From positions 1-64,000 of the forward strand of contig NZ_JADPVH010000011.1 in the NCBI RefSeq assembly GCF_026932795.1: DNA of 64,000 nt, given 5' to 3'. The stretch is from Paenarthrobacter sp. Z7-10 (GTDB taxonomy: Bacteria > Actinomycetota > Actinomycetes > Actinomycetales > Micrococcaceae). The notes beneath the pieces are model-generated. The model saw nothing but the letters and a program-made list of their open reading frames with translations, was not told the DNA's origin and ran no database searches. The position numbers were made by a program, and so were the translations under genes. Position 1 is the first letter of the stretch, and every line of letters starts with the position of its first letter. Below, one piece after another: positions 13,405 through 58,628 of this stretch.

Positions 13405-14097
13405 ATGATTGACCTGGCCGCGGCGAAAGCAACTTACCGGTCGGCAGCTCTCGTCTTCGCCGATCTTGTCGCTCGGATTCCGGCCGACGATTGGGAGGAA
13501 CCAGGCCTGGGCGAGTGGGACCTGCGCGCGCTCGTGGGGCACACCAGCCGGGCACTCAGCACTGTGATCAACTATCTGCAGCGGCCGGCAGCGAACGAGG
13601 CAGCTTCGAGCCCTGAGCAGTATTTCGCCAGGGCTAAACAGACCGCCTCGGCAGCGAGTCCGGAAGTCAATGCGGTAGCCGACGGGGCAGCCAATCCAGG
13701 CGCCGGCGGGATGGCCATGCCGGACGCCTACGCGGTTGCCGTGGCCGAGCGGGGTCGGCAAGCGGGTCGGCAATTAGGTGCCGAGCCCGCCACTGCGGTT
13801 CGCGTCCTCGTCGACCACGCGCTGGAGTCCGTGGATACTTCGCCCGATGTCCTGATTGAAACCGCGGCCGGTGGTATGTATCTGCGCAATTATCTTCCGA
13901 CTCGGACCTTTGAGCTCGCAGTTCACAGCCTCGACATCGCAGCTGCGGCGGGAGTGGCGGCCGCGTTACCCGCTGATGTCCTGTTGGAGGCAACGGCGCT
14001 CGCGGGCCGGATCGCCGTTGAACTGGGCTGCGGACTGGAGGTTCTCACTGCGTTGACCGGCAGGACGGGTCTTCCGGAGGGCTTCACAGTCGTGTGA
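13405..14097 (+). CDS. Maleylpyruvate isomerase N-terminal/DinB-like (TIGR03083/TIGR03086-type) protein
   Basis: 230 residues; ATG 13405 preferred over the GTG at 13390 because M-I-D-L-A-A-A-K-A-T-Y opens the first helix. The four-helix bundle contains W-D-L-R-A-L-V-G-H-T-S-R-A-L with the metal-binding His, and a second set E-L-A-V-H-S-L-D-I-A-A-A-A with another His-Asp pair. Related enzymes are mycothiol-dependent metalloenzymes. Here the substrate is unknown. The stop codon lies inside a short tandem repeat (14092-14141). Confidence 0.78.
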   Translation: MIDLAAAKATYRSAALVFADLVARIPADDWEEPGLGEWDLRALVGHTSRALSTVINYLQRPAANEAASSPEQYFARAKQTASAASPEVNAVADGAANPGAGGMAMPDAYAVAVAERGRQAGRQLGAEPATAVRVLVDHALESVDTSPDVLIETAAGGMYLRNYLPTRTFELAVHSLDIAAAAGVAAALPADVLLEATALAGRIAVELGCGLEVLTALTGRTGLPEGFTVV

Positions 14098-14141
14098 CTG
14101 TCTTCGTTCCTGCCCGTGTGCGACTGTCTTGGTTCCTGCCC
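14092..14141 (+). repeat. Two-copy tandem repeat straddling a stop codon
   Basis: Copy one is 14092-14115 and copy two 14116-14141; both end GTTCCTGCCC and share (C/T)GACTGTCTT. The TGA stop of the preceding gene is in copy one, and a near match (TGCGA) sits at the same place in copy two. Confidence 0.75.
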
Positions 14142-14168
14142 GGACCTTGGTCCCGTGCCCACGGCATC

Positions 14169-14229
14169 TAAGTAACAGTTGATGCACTCAAAAGGCCGAA
14201 TGAGTGCATCAGCTGCTACCTACTTGGGG
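14169..14229. repeat. Dispersed hairpin element, copy A
   Basis: A long inverted repeat: TGATGCACTCA (14180-14190) and TGAGTGCATCA (14201-14211) pair perfectly around a 10-nt loop, with outer AAGTAACAG and CTGCTACCTACTT arms. The same element occurs at 57393-57458. It lies between a convergent-free gene end and the kinase promoter region, so it may act as a terminator or as a REP-like mobile hairpin. Confidence 0.75.
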
Positions 14230-50927: not shown

Positions 50928-51112
50928 TTGCCTAGCTCTGCCACCGCTCACGGTCCGTTCGCAACAATCGTCTGGCAGGGGCGGGGGAACCAATATCGGG
51001 CTTCAGAACGAAGCCCTAGGGGTGAAGTCGCACCAGATCCACCGGAAATAACTCCGGTGGATATTTTGCGGCCGGGTGACTCCCATCCGAATCCGACAGC
51101 TTACCTCGCAGG
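50928..51112 (+). ncRNA. c-di-AMP riboswitch (ydaO/yuaA class)
   Basis: The conserved blocks of the ydaO motif occur in order: G-G-G-G-G-A-A-C-C-A-A-T (about 50982-50993), GGGGTGAAGTC (51019-51029), then CCGGGTGACTCCCATCCGAA and TCCGACAGCTTACCTCGCAG near the 3' end (about 51072-51110), with variable hairpins between. It sits 20 bp upstream of an NlpC/P60 gene, the usual actinobacterial arrangement in which high c-di-AMP turns the wall hydrolase off. Exact ends are estimated. Confidence 0.9.
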
Positions 51113-51132
51113 CATTGGGAGAGGCTTCCGTC

Positions 51133-54966: not shown

Positions 54967-56459
54967 TGGACCGTTCCGGGCAACAGCTGGCCCCGCGCCA
55001 GGATCCGGCAAACCCGGCCCCGCAGGGCCACGAGCCGCTGCCGGACTGGCTCGCCCCGCGCCAAGATCCGGCGAACCCGGCCCCGCAGGGCCACGAGCCG
55101 CGGCCGGACTGGCCGGCGCCGCGGCAGGCAGCCGGCGCGCAACAGGAGCCGACCGAGCCCAAACCAGTGCTGCCCCAGCCCTGGACACGGTCGCTGTCAC
55201 CGTCGGAGCCGGGCGGATCGGATGGCAAAACCGAGGACGGAACGGAGCCGGCGGTGCGGCCACAACTGGCGTTCCCGTTGGTCCACTTGCCGCACAGCTG
55301 GGACGAGGCCCGGGAACGTGCCTATGAGGCAGCGGCTGCGCTGCCTGCCCATCCGGTGCCGTTGGAGCGCGCCATCGGACGGATCTTGGCGCAGGACATA
55401 GTCGCGCTGCAGGACATGCCGCACTATGCCTCATCCGCCATGGATGGATGGGCGGTGGCGGGAAGTCCGCCCTGGATTTTAGCCGGGCGCGGAGAGCGGC
55501 TGTCGGCGGGCCAAGCCTGCCCGATCGTCACGGGGGGCCTGATTCCACGGGGGGCCAAGGCAGTTTTGCGCAGCGAATCCGGCCGGATCGGCAGGGACGA
55601 CGACGGTCTGCCGGTGCTGCTGCTGGGGGAGCGGGCCCGTCCGGGCGAACCAAAGAACGGCCAGCACATCCGCCGCGCCGCCGAAGAGGCAGCCGCCGGC
55701 GACCTCCTGGTCCGCACTGGCGTGCGCCTGAACCCGGCGCATGTTGCCGTCGCTGCGCTGGCGGGGATGGACAGCATCCAAGTGCTCGGCCAGCCCAATG
55801 TCCGGCTGATTTTCACCGGAGACGAGGTGATTGCGGCAGGTCTTCCAGGTCCCGGCAAGGTCCGGGATACCTTTTCCCCGCAGCTGGCGACCGTGGTGCG
55901 TAACCTGGGTGGCGCCGTCGTCGGCCAGCAGCATGTGCCCGACTCGCAGTCGGATCTGGTGGAGGCGCTCCGGGACCGCCCGGACAATCCGGCCGATGTC
56001 CTGATTACCACAGGCGCCACAGGGGGTTCCAGCGTCGATTTCCTGCGCCCGGCGATCGCCGAATTGGGTGGGACCATGATCATCGATGGCATCGCGATGC
56101 GCCCCGGCCACCCCACGCTGCTGGCCGAATTTCCGGACGGCCGGTTCCTGCTGGGTCTGCCGGGGAATCCACTGGCGGCGATGATGGGGCTGTTGACACT
56201 CGGCGCGCCGCTGCTGGCCCGGCTGGGCAGCGCCTCAAAACCCGTCACCGCCGAAGTGGCGTGCGGCTCCCCGATTCCGGAAAGCCCCGGCCGGACCCGC
56301 CTGCTGCCGTACCGGCTGGTGTATGGACTGGCGTCGCCGGCGAAGTTTACCGATTCGTTCATGATGCGGGGCCTGGCGGCCGCGGACGGTGTCATGCTTG
56401 TGCCCCCGCATGGAGCGCGGATGGGGGATGTCCTGACGACCATTCCGCTGCCGTGGTGA
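54966..56459 (+). CDS. moeA: Molybdopterin molybdenumtransferase MoeA with repeat-bearing N-terminal extension
   Basis: 497 residues from GTG 54966, about 90 longer than typical MoeA. The extension contains a duplicated 21-residue unit (L-A-P-R-Q-D-P-A-N-P-A-P-Q-G-H-E-P), residues 8-28 and 29-49. The MoeA core follows: S-A-M-D-G-W-A-V, T-G-G-L-I-P-R-G-A, I-F-T-G-D-E-V, T-T-G-A-T-G-G-S-S-V-D-F, G-L-P-G-N-P-L-A-A. It inserts molybdate into adenylylated molybdopterin. Third gene of the MobA-DUF6457-MoeA-FdhD run. Confidence 0.93.
   Translation: MDRSGQQLAPRQDPANPAPQGHEPLPDWLAPRQDPANPAPQGHEPRPDWPAPRQAAGAQQEPTEPKPVLPQPWTRSLSPSEPGGSDGKTEDGTEPAVRPQLAFPLVHLPHSWDEARERAYEAAAALPAHPVPLERAIGRILAQDIVALQDMPHYASSAMDGWAVAGSPPWILAGRGERLSAGQACPIVTGGLIPRGAKAVLRSESGRIGRDDDGLPVLLLGERARPGEPKNGQHIRRAAEEAAAGDLLVRTGVRLNPAHVAVAALAGMDSIQVLGQPNVRLIFTGDEVIAAGLPGPGKVRDTFSPQLATVVRNLGGAVVGQQHVPDSQSDLVEALRDRPDNPADVLITTGATGGSSVDFLRPAIAELGGTMIIDGIAMRPGHPTLLAEFPDGRFLLGLPGNPLAAMMGLLTLGAPLLARLGSASKPVTAEVACGSPIPESPGRTRLLPYRLVYGLASPAKFTDSFMMRGLAAADGVMLVPPHGARMGDVLTTIPLPW
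54987..55112 (+). repeat. Two-copy 63-bp direct repeat inside moeA
   Basis: 54987-55049 and 55050-55112 differ in only a few positions and encode the same 21-residue Pro-rich unit. It lies in the non-conserved N-terminal extension, so the duplication is unlikely to touch catalysis. Confidence 0.9.
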
Positions 56460-56496: not shown

Positions 56497-57405
56497 GTGG
56501 GACGGCTCACACAGCATGTGAAAATGACGAAGTACCGGTTCAGCGCAGCCGGCCCCGGGAACGACGCGGGCAGGGTGTCGGTGGTGCTGCGCGAGGATGC
56601 GCTGGCTGCCGAGGAACCGCTGGAGATCCGGCTCGGGCAAAAGGCCTTCAGCGTCACGATGCGCACGCCCGGGGATGATTTCGACCTGGTGGCGGGCTTC
56701 CTGGTATCCGAGGGTGTGATCTGGCAGCCGGAGCAGCTGGTTTCACTGCGGTTCTGCGCCGGTGAGGACGAAAATGGCCGGCAGACCTTCAACGTGGTTG
56801 AAGCCCAGCTCCGGCCCGACGTCGCCCTGCCCGACACCGGACTGGAGCGGCATGTCTACACCAGCAGCTCCTGCGGCATCTGCGGCACCGCGTCGATCGA
56901 TGCGGTGCGGAAATCCTCGCATTATCTGCTGGCCGACTCCGCGGACCCAGAATCCAGCCGAATACCCGCCGAACTGCTGGCATCGCTCCCGGACCGGCTG
57001 CGCGAACAGCAAAAACTCTTCGAACGCACCGGCGGGGTGCACGCGGCCGGGCTGTTCAGTGCCGCGGGGGAGCTGCTCTGCCTGCGCGAGGACGTGGGCA
57101 GGCACAATGCTGTAGATAAAGTGGTTGGCTGGGCCTTGCGCGAGGGCCGGCTGCCGTTGGCCGGGACCGTGCTGCAGGTTTCCGGCCGGGCGTCCTTCGA
57201 ATTGGTCCAAAAAGCAGCCCTCGCAGGCATTGAGATTCTCGCAGCGGTGAGTGCGCCGTCGTCGTTGGCGGTGGAACTGGCCGCCGAGTCAGGGTTGACG
57301 CTGGTGGGCTTCAGCCGCGGCAGCAGCCTGAACGTGTACACCCATCCGGACCGGGTGCTGGAACGCCCAGCCGGCATTCCTTCCTCCCCTCTCCCAAGTA
57401 AGTAA
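56497..57405 (+). CDS. fdhD: Formate dehydrogenase accessory sulfurtransferase FdhD
   Basis: 302 residues from GTG 56497 with AAGGAGG. The sulfur-transfer site is S-S-C-G-I-C-G-T; E-D-V-G-R-H-N-A-V-D-K and S-G-R-A-S-F-E-L-V-Q-K-A are the other conserved blocks. It passes sulfur from a cysteine desulfurase to the molybdenum cofactor of formate dehydrogenase. The last codons and the TAA stop lie in the hairpin element copy B, so the natural end may have been altered by the insertion. Confidence 0.95.
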   Translation: MGRLTQHVKMTKYRFSAAGPGNDAGRVSVVLREDALAAEEPLEIRLGQKAFSVTMRTPGDDFDLVAGFLVSEGVIWQPEQLVSLRFCAGEDENGRQTFNVVEAQLRPDVALPDTGLERHVYTSSSCGICGTASIDAVRKSSHYLLADSADPESSRIPAELLASLPDRLREQQKLFERTGGVHAAGLFSAAGELLCLREDVGRHNAVDKVVGWALREGRLPLAGTVLQVSGRASFELVQKAALAGIEILAAVSAPSSLAVELAAESGLTLVGFSRGSSLNVYTHPDRVLERPAGIPSSPLPSK

Positions 57406-57458
57406 CAGATAACGCACGCAAAACCCCGAATGAGTGCATCTGCTGTTACTCAGTTGGG
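57393..57458. repeat. Dispersed hairpin element, copy B
   Basis: CCCAAGTAAGTAACAG at the left pairs with CTGTTACTCAGTTGGG-like sequence at the right (CCCAA/TTGGG and GTAACAG/CTGTTAC exact), with GCACGCA and TGAGTGC inner arms. Same arrangement and loop core (CCGAATGAGTGCATC) as copy A at 14169-14229. It overlaps the last 12 bases of fdhD, including the stop. Confidence 0.8.
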
Positions 57459-57491: not shown

Positions 57492-58574
57492 ATGGAACTC
57501 GGAATTTTCAGCTTTGGCGACATCCACCCCAATCCGGTCACCGGGGAGCGCGTCTCGGCGGCCCAAAACACGGCGGATCTGCTCGAGCGGGCACGGCTGG
57601 CCGACGACGTCGGACTGCACTACGTGGGCATTTGGCGAGCACCCCGGCCGGACTATTCCGTCACCTCGCCGTCCACCGTGCTGGCAGCCATGGCGGCGCA
57701 GACCCACAATATTCATCTGGGCAGCGCCGTGACAGTTCTGAGCACCGAGGACCCGGTCCGGGTGTTCCAGCAGTTCGCCACCTTGGACCTGATCTCCCAA
57801 GGACGTGCGGAACTGACTGCCGGACGGGGTTCATTCATCGAGTCCTACCCGCTCTTTGGCGCCAAGCTGGAGGACTACGACGCGCTCTACGAGGAGAAAA
57901 TCGACCTGCTGCTGCGGCTCAATGCGCAGGAACGAATTACTTGGCGGGGCAATTTCCGGCCCGCGCTGGAGAACGCCCTGATCCTGCCGCGCCCCTTCCG
58001 GCAGGAGCTGGACATCTGGATCGCCACCGGCGGGACGCCGCAGTCAACGGTCAGGGCCGCGCTGCTGGGCAAATCCGTGATGTATGCGATCCTGGGCGGA
58101 GCCGTCACCAATTTTGAACGTCACACGGAGCTGTATCGGCAGACTGCGGCGGAAGCCGGGCACGATGCTGGAACGCTGCGGGTGGGCGCCAGCACGCCGG
58201 GATTGATCCTGCGCCAGGGTGCGCTGGATACCTATCGGCCCTATTGGATGGAATCGATGACCCGGATTGCTTCCGAACGCGGCTTCCCCATGCCCAGCGA
58301 AGTGACCTACCGCGCCCAGAGCGCTCCCGCCGGCGCATTATTTGTCGGTACCCCGGAAGAGGTGGCCAAAAAGATAGTCCGGATGCACTCACATATGCAG
58401 CATGACCGGCAGATCTTCCAGCTGGATTTCTCCTCGGTGCCGCAGAAGCTGGTGCTGGAATCCATTGAACTGCTCGGAACCGAGGTGCTGCCGCTTGTTA
58501 ACCAGGAACTGGGTCACACGGCGACCGGGAGGAAAACGGGCCGGACAGGGTTAGAACTGGCGCGACAGCGTTAG
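57492..58574 (+). CDS. Luciferase-like (LLM class) flavin-dependent oxidoreductase
   Basis: 360 residues from ATG 57492 (M-E-L-G-I-F-S-F-G-D-I). An upstream ATG at 57462 would add ten poorly conserved residues, some of which lie close to the hairpin element. The TIM barrel shows A-D-D-V-G-L-H-Y-V-G-I, A-A-Q-T-H-N-I-H-L-G-S-A-V-T-V-L-S-T-E-D-P-V-R-V-F-Q-Q-F-A, and G-R-A-E-L-T-A-G-R-G-S-F. It uses reduced FMN or F420; substrate unknown. The stop lies in the 20-bp tandem repeat. Confidence 0.88.
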   Translation: MELGIFSFGDIHPNPVTGERVSAAQNTADLLERARLADDVGLHYVGIWRAPRPDYSVTSPSTVLAAMAAQTHNIHLGSAVTVLSTEDPVRVFQQFATLDLISQGRAELTAGRGSFIESYPLFGAKLEDYDALYEEKIDLLLRLNAQERITWRGNFRPALENALILPRPFRQELDIWIATGGTPQSTVRAALLGKSVMYAILGGAVTNFERHTELYRQTAAEAGHDAGTLRVGASTPGLILRQGALDTYRPYWMESMTRIASERGFPMPSEVTYRAQSAPAGALFVGTPEEVAKKIVRMHSHMQHDRQIFQLDFSSVPQKLVLESIELLGTEVLPLVNQELGHTATGRKTGRTGLELARQR

Positions 58575-58628
58575 GACTCGTGCGACAGGGTTAGAACTCG
58601 TGCAGCAGGGCTAGAACTCGTGCAGCAG
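58549..58628. repeat. 20-bp tandem repeat, four copies, across two convergent gene ends
   Basis: Units 58549-58568, 58569-58588, 58589-58608 and 58609-58628 share the pattern (G/C)G(T/C)TAG(A/G)ACT-N8-CAG. The forward LLM gene stops in unit 2 (58574) and the reverse ABC ATPase gene stops in unit 4 (58611). Each unit contains a forward TAG and, on the reverse, a Leu-Leu-His-Glu-Phe-stop-like reading. Confidence 0.92.

Follow-up and report, generated by a model that had tools for sequence, protein, structure and literature searches.

The window analysed here, the whole stretch of 64,000 nucleotides from Paenarthrobacter sp. Z7-10, carries similar hairpins at two places some 43 kb apart, and the locus raises the question of whether these are copies of a dispersed element or old terminators shared by descent. 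A first-pass annotation favoured the former, naming 14169-14229 and 57393-57458 as REP/MITE-like copies. Here we report that the hairpin belongs to a family that occurs throughout the genomes of a single group of soil bacteria, in most cases immediately after a gene, and that it is a variant of the REP/MITE-type palindromes and not a member of a named family. The explanation we prefer, with a probability of about 0.68, is a REP/MITE-like, non-autonomous palindrome family in which dispersal is primary and the effect at gene 3' ends is a tolerated or adopted consequence.

A repeat search of the window returned 14169-14228 and 57399-57458 as a two-copy family with 82% identity over 60 nt and a spacing of 43,230. 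With both loci read out, the unit is an imperfect palindrome of 66 bp, consisting of 28-bp arms and a 10-nt centre. The features are as follows.

14163 to 14228, no strand: copy A, whole palindromic element, between the MDMPI_N-domain gene and the protein kinase gene
14163 to 14190, forward strand: left arm of copy A, variable block GTTGAT, alignment A1 columns 3-30
14191 to 14200, no strand: centre of copy A (AAAGGCCGAA), alignment A1 columns 31-40
14201 to 14228, reverse strand: right arm of copy A, variable block GCTGAT read inward, alignment A1 columns 41-68
57393 to 57458, no strand: copy B, whole palindromic element, between fdhD and the luciferase-like monooxygenase gene
57393 to 57420, forward strand: left arm of copy B, variable block GATAAC, alignment A1 columns 3-30
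57421 to 57430, no strand: centre of copy B (AAACCCCGAA), alignment A1 columns 31-40
57431 to 57458, reverse strand: right arm of copy B, variable block GCAGAT
57403 to 57405, forward strand: stop codon TAA of fdhD, inside copy B

The outer end of copy A is degenerate on its left side, and copy B is a mosaic, since its arms carry different variable blocks (GATAAC and GCAGAT). The last codons of fdhD, the product of which has an FdhD-NarQ domain, lie within copy B together with the TAA, as the first-pass annotation had stated; its observation that the outside sequence is unrelated also holds, the flanks of A and B having no visible likeness beyond the unit. On either strand both copies fold better than 200 of 200 dinucleotide shuffles (-30.8 and -32.1 kcal/mol for A and -26.2 and -32.8 kcal/mol for B on the two strands; z -4.8 to -6.7). 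An Rfam scan of the window at gathering thresholds returned only a tRNA and a c-di-AMP (ydaO) riboswitch (50943-51128, 52.7 bits) and placed the hairpins in no known RNA family.

Three further repeats were recorded in the window. A unit of about 25 bp (GTGTGACTGTCTTCGTTCCTGCCC) occurs twice, imperfectly repeated, at 14097-14160, between the MDMPI_N gene and copy A; a 20-bp tandem unit (GACAGGGTTAGAACTCGTGC) occupies 58524-58623, between the luciferase-like monooxygenase gene and a convergent ABC transporter gene; and a 63-bp tandem duplication with 94% identity (54986-55111) lies at the start of a molybdopterin-type gene upstream of fdhD. Across the family, tandem repeats adjoining the elements were not enriched.

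Copies were counted in the genome of the window (G000) and in four other genomes of the genus (G001-G004). With at most 3 mismatches, the core pattern occurred at 27 places in G000 and its reversed control at 0. A covariance model built from these 27 copies gave 86 matches in G000, which are 43 places each matched on both strands, a lower bound as 150 of 824 first-look candidates were scored. Within the window the model matched only copies A and B (E 1.2e-20 and 2.5e-19), by construction because both are among the training copies. Contigs C100, at its start, and C104, at its end, both break inside the element and have 47 identical bases in common, so the assembler has probably split one palindrome between two adjoining contigs, leaving about 42 copies. 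The hairpin pair is thus real by repeat search, by folding against shuffles and by the core-pattern control, and it is part of a dispersed family as first proposed; the contrary case, just two copies that are both conserved, does not describe this genome.

In the congeners the covariance model found 16 places in G001, 34 in G002, 26 in G004 and 0 in G003; the match list of G002 is identical to that of Paenarthrobacter sp. PH39-S1, which is one of the carriers. The model was applied to the five genus genomes, and other genera were searched by exact patterns. Of 59 relatives, 5 contained the exact inner pattern: four genus members out of five and, elsewhere in the order, one relative with a single, chance-looking match. 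Viral contigs (searched by exact pattern), plasmids and phages gave no match. A literature search, with supplements and subscription papers outside its scope, retrieved no description of the family, and a search with four of its sequence words retrieved no paper.

The element consists of two halves, with the consensus CCCAACTNNGTNNCAGNNNNNNGCACTCA, that point towards each other across 10 bases; in some copies the palindrome continues through the centre. Loci were fetched for 118 of 119 places, and 113 were analysed after five had been dropped (2 truncated, 2 with indels, 1 with Ns). The 6-bp variable block was the same in both arms of 48 of the 113 copies, where 2000 shuffles within genomes gave 12.8 on average and 26 at most. 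Common blocks differ by genome (GCAGAT, GCTGAT and GATAAC in G000; CTTATG, GCACCT and others in G002), and mosaics of two common blocks were found in 6/40 copies of G000, copy B among them, 0/15 of G001, 6/33 of G002 and 4/25 of G004. Judged from these patterns, the arms of the family look like exchangeable modules. In G000 the half-site pattern turned up a single clear solo half, at C47:45849, and an additional tandem half, at C52:25636, with 3 matches for the reversed control; as unpaired halves are almost absent, G000 offers no candidate half-pair around a transposase. Terminal inverted repeats, lack of coding capacity and dispersal, which are among the marks of a MITE, are all present in the family.

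Placement relative to genes was determined with a hexamer gene caller trained on these data, for which starts are uncertain and stops exact. Five of the 118 copies lie inside predicted genes (one with certainty) and 3 at contig ends, while 110 lie between two genes, in 41 convergent, 50 same-direction and 19 divergent gaps. Convergent gaps are overrepresented (41/110, versus 108/725 among element-free gaps of at least 40 bp; Fisher p 1.5e-7). Facing 3' ends fall inside the element or within 5 bp of it in 59 of 132 cases (45%), and facing 5' ends in 5 of 88 (6%). Random 66-bp windows in element-free gaps, a crude null in which some gaps are shorter than the element, gave 38% for 3' ends and 28% for 5' ends by the same 5-bp measure, so that the 45% figure alone is weak and the deficit at 5' ends is strong. 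The paired comparison of distances in same-direction gaps works without this null, and there 43 of 50 copies are closer to the 3' end (median 9 versus 93 bp). In addition, 35 stop codons fall on just two element positions. On these counts the element either prefers gene 3' ends or is tolerated there.

By its sequence, a transcribed copy would place a hairpin directly behind a stop codon, on either strand, and such a 3' hairpin could end or protect the mRNA. Intrinsic (Rho-independent) terminators likewise form a stem-loop directly behind stop codons; in contrast to them, the family is one recurrent sequence that has no T-run 3' of the stem (the consensus there is AGTTGGG), with some copies in divergent gaps and one within a gene. 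Among convergent gaps, canonical terminators were found in 1 of 31 that hold an element and in 10 of 79 that do not, and among same-direction gaps in 1 of 47 and 12 of 331, respectively, neither difference being significant and both comparisons having low power; the idea that elements substitute for canonical terminators was set aside on this result. In same-direction contexts there was no excess of G.U pairs on the sense strand (48 G.U versus 63 A.C). Since both the G.U excess and the T-run are missing, dispersal is ranked first and a role at 3' ends second.

Insertion was assessed by tracing 16 sites of G000 into G001-G004 via a neighbouring gene, which yielded 50 orthologous loci (site C102 was traceable from its 5' side only). 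The first-pass annotation had proposed a check for empty sites in close relatives, and by reading and palindrome score the element was absent at 48 of the 50 loci. The covariance model agrees, its at-site matches being confined to loci L088 and L111. Both occupied loci belong to G002, at C49:29313 and C72:5742. Behind fdhD no element was present in the four congeners, where the last residues of the protein are different; at locus L192 the model found two copies about 3 kb beyond fdhD and none at the site. Copy A was absent in both congeners where its neighbour gene was found.

An in-frame copy lies inside a gene with thioredoxin-like and NHL domains in G000, G001, G002 and G004, that of G002 being degenerate (E 1.1e-4 in the covariance model). 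The protein segment concerned measures 62, 66, 66 and 66 aa in these four genomes, respectively, and its counterpart 42 aa in G003, which lacks this copy, and 37-47 aa in nine genomes of other genera (9 of 20 loci with a readable segment; 25 other-genus loci in total). The longer segment in the four carriers shows that insertion did happen. On the other hand, 15 of the 16 places of G001 recur in G004 by their neighbours, and four places (C35:66263, C47:48879, C43:37033 and C124:34939) have the same neighbouring genes in all four carriers, so that much of the family is inherited. The first-pass proposal that the element can move or expand into genes is thus upheld, as past insertion, by the in-frame copy and qualified by the many old, inherited places, and copy B itself altered only the last codons of fdhD.

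These shared places are an argument for an older origin, in which the copies would be vertically inherited long-stem terminators, kept by selection and homogenised by gene conversion between copies. The position at gene 3' ends fits such an origin, as do other long hairpins at site C68:16469 in three congeners. Stem changes were counted in orthologous pairs listed by hand from neighbour-gene matches. Between G002 and G004 (10 copies), 24 compensated changes were counted where the null gave 7.7 (at most 15), beside 36 one-sided ones; this excess, which would speak for the older origin, stems from whole blocks swapped on both arms, and two copies have a nearly unchanged centre. Between G001 and G004 (14 copies, 392 base pairs), 67 pair-breaking one-sided changes stand against 5 compensated ones, for which the null was 2.4 (maximum 7). 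Such mostly uncompensated drift and the strand test argue against an RNA hairpin under strong selection. The inherited-terminator explanation also has to accommodate the empty orthologous loci, the in-frame copy, the 19 of 110 copies between divergent genes, the lack of a T-run and of a G.U excess, and a canonical terminator that adjoins the copy at C80, and we consider it unlikely. On comparative grounds, the copies are read as inserted elements rather than old shared terminators.

G003, which yielded no match to the covariance model, has a repeat of its own, GAGTGTCGA[GC]ATNNGCACCC, with 78 half-units by pattern versus 0 in the control. Twenty loci (L249-L268) hold 23 arrays (e.g. L268:5004-5194 and L266:1298-1504), of which 18 have all plus units before all minus units, 3 have one orientation and 2 are mixed; tandem units are mostly 31-33 bp apart. 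By gap, 10 arrays are convergent, 9 same-direction, 3 divergent and 1 unplaced, and of the facing 3' ends 24 out of 29 are no more than 26 bp away. At three G003 places, neighbouring genes recur beside element sites of other species, and in one case, C68:16469, the gene gap itself is the same. Compared with the window family, the G003 half-unit agrees at 9 of 13 fixed positions (shuffle fraction 0.006).

A third hairpin type, GAGTGGGTACATCTGCCCCTAAA with variants, recurs in G001 and occurs in G004 at these places.

L205:1143-1197, G001: third hairpin type
L147:5710-5764, G001: third hairpin type
L137:2569-2623, G001: third hairpin type
L204:2295-2352, G004: third hairpin type

It matches the G003 half-unit at 15 of 21 positions (0 of 20,000 shuffles) and the window family no better than chance (0.18). 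Taken as sequence likeness, this suggests that the G003 repeat, the third hairpin type and the window family may be one superfamily with species dialects. A further step, which we regard as doubtful, would be a single half-unit plan with dialects that co-evolve with a trans-acting factor recognising the half-unit, serving as species-specific, RAYT-free punctuation of 3' ends. The plan would read GAGT or AGT, about ten bases, then GCACYC or GCCCCT, and would take the form of 66-bp inverted pairs in G000, G001, G002 and G004, of facing tandem arrays in G003, and of GAGTGGGTACATCTGCCCC hairpins in G001 and G004. Each species would arrive at its dialect through an exchange of arms, after which one arm is copied over its partner.

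The same observations bear on the possibility of a binding or uptake-type signal, each half being the site of a DNA-binding protein and the species versions co-evolving dialects. Genome-specific common blocks, the different half-unit in facing arrays of G003 and its 9 of 13 matching positions would be expected of such a signal; the halves of G000 are, however, almost always paired, unlike uptake sequences, and binding to a half-site would not require the variable block to pair. Inverted pairs of Neisseria DNA uptake sequences resemble the family as stem-loops behind genes with species dialects, in the available part of PMC3630211, and differ from it in that the half-units of G000 are almost never solo. 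We hold this explanation to be improbable.

REP elements are described, in the passages of PMC12306157 available, as extragenic, palindromic sequences with a common consensus and many copies per genome, all of which applies to the family. By the same passages, annotated REPs of Escherichia coli are 14-40 nt long and candidates of the survey tool reach 71 nt, so the 66-bp element is above the former range and within the latter. Those passages also give 5,512 putative REPs for Arthrobacter livingstonensis by a permissive tool, which, compared by count alone and not by sequence, may overlap the family. The words Actinobacteria and Arthrobacter are absent from the available text of the paper on GTAG- and CGTC-tagged REPs (PMC3733652). 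As far as the passages of both papers go, REPs and the family are alike palindromic, multicopy, mostly intergenic and often downstream of genes, with some copies in genes.

True REP elements would be mobilised by a RAYT (Y1 tyrosine transposase), here one since lost or overlooked. The dispersal of palindromes behind genes, the word GTAG or GTCG within the arm of many G002 and G004 copies and one Y1_Tnp match in G002 agree with that; yet PF01797 gave 0 matches in G000, G001, G003 and G004 while control genomes were positive, and the REP/RAYT identity was rejected with the domain missing in 4 of 5 genus genomes. The linked REP-type transposase that the first-pass annotation proposed to look for is therefore not present in the window's genome. 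Moreover, the family has no GTAG end tag: the similar word varies (GTAA or GTGG in many G000 copies) and sits inside the paired stem, which at 28 bp within a 66-bp unit contrasts with 5-13 bp in GTAG REPs (PMC3733652, in part), and the arms are mosaic. Mobilisation by a RAYT is very improbable.

MITEs such as Correia, ERIC and RUP, as covered in the passages of PMC10969869 at hand, are likewise short inverted repeats, dispersed and non-autonomous, which act on adjacent genes and contribute coding sequence. The family is shorter than these, the half-site search of G000 gave no candidate for a parent transposon, and no target-site duplication was found, direct repeats at its borders being no commoner than with shuffled partners. 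Rickettsia palindromic elements (same passages) share with it a palindrome inserted in frame in a protein gene; they measure about 150 bp against about 66 bp, and the family is mainly intergenic with one certain coding copy. Lacking the tag, the stem length, the RAYT and the target duplication, the family is filed as a variant and not as a member of a named family.

Integron attC-like sites, suggested by a palindrome of roughly 60 bp that follows genes directly and has CCCAAC...GTTGGG ends, which we take to resemble attC core boxes, can be dismissed, as the neighbours are ordinary chromosomal genes, many places are common to several species, and the integron integrase model TIGR02249 never rose above its cut-off, scoring below it alike in 5/5 genus genomes and 14/14 controls.

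Under the preferred explanation, a non-autonomous palindrome family, copies would be dispersed in trans, through an enzyme or a recombination pathway not encoded by the element, and arms would be exchanged between copies. If this is correct, Paenarthrobacter-like actinobacteria hold a palindrome family unlike the known REP families, by the passages compared, and set apart by its long stem, the lack of a REP transposase and arms exchanged as modules. Dozens of genes would then receive their stop codon or first 3' hairpin from a repeat, and in G003, the species without the window family, a different family would fill the same niche. Closely related species that differ in carrying a copy at a given gene end would make the origin and spread of transposase-less palindromes directly testable.
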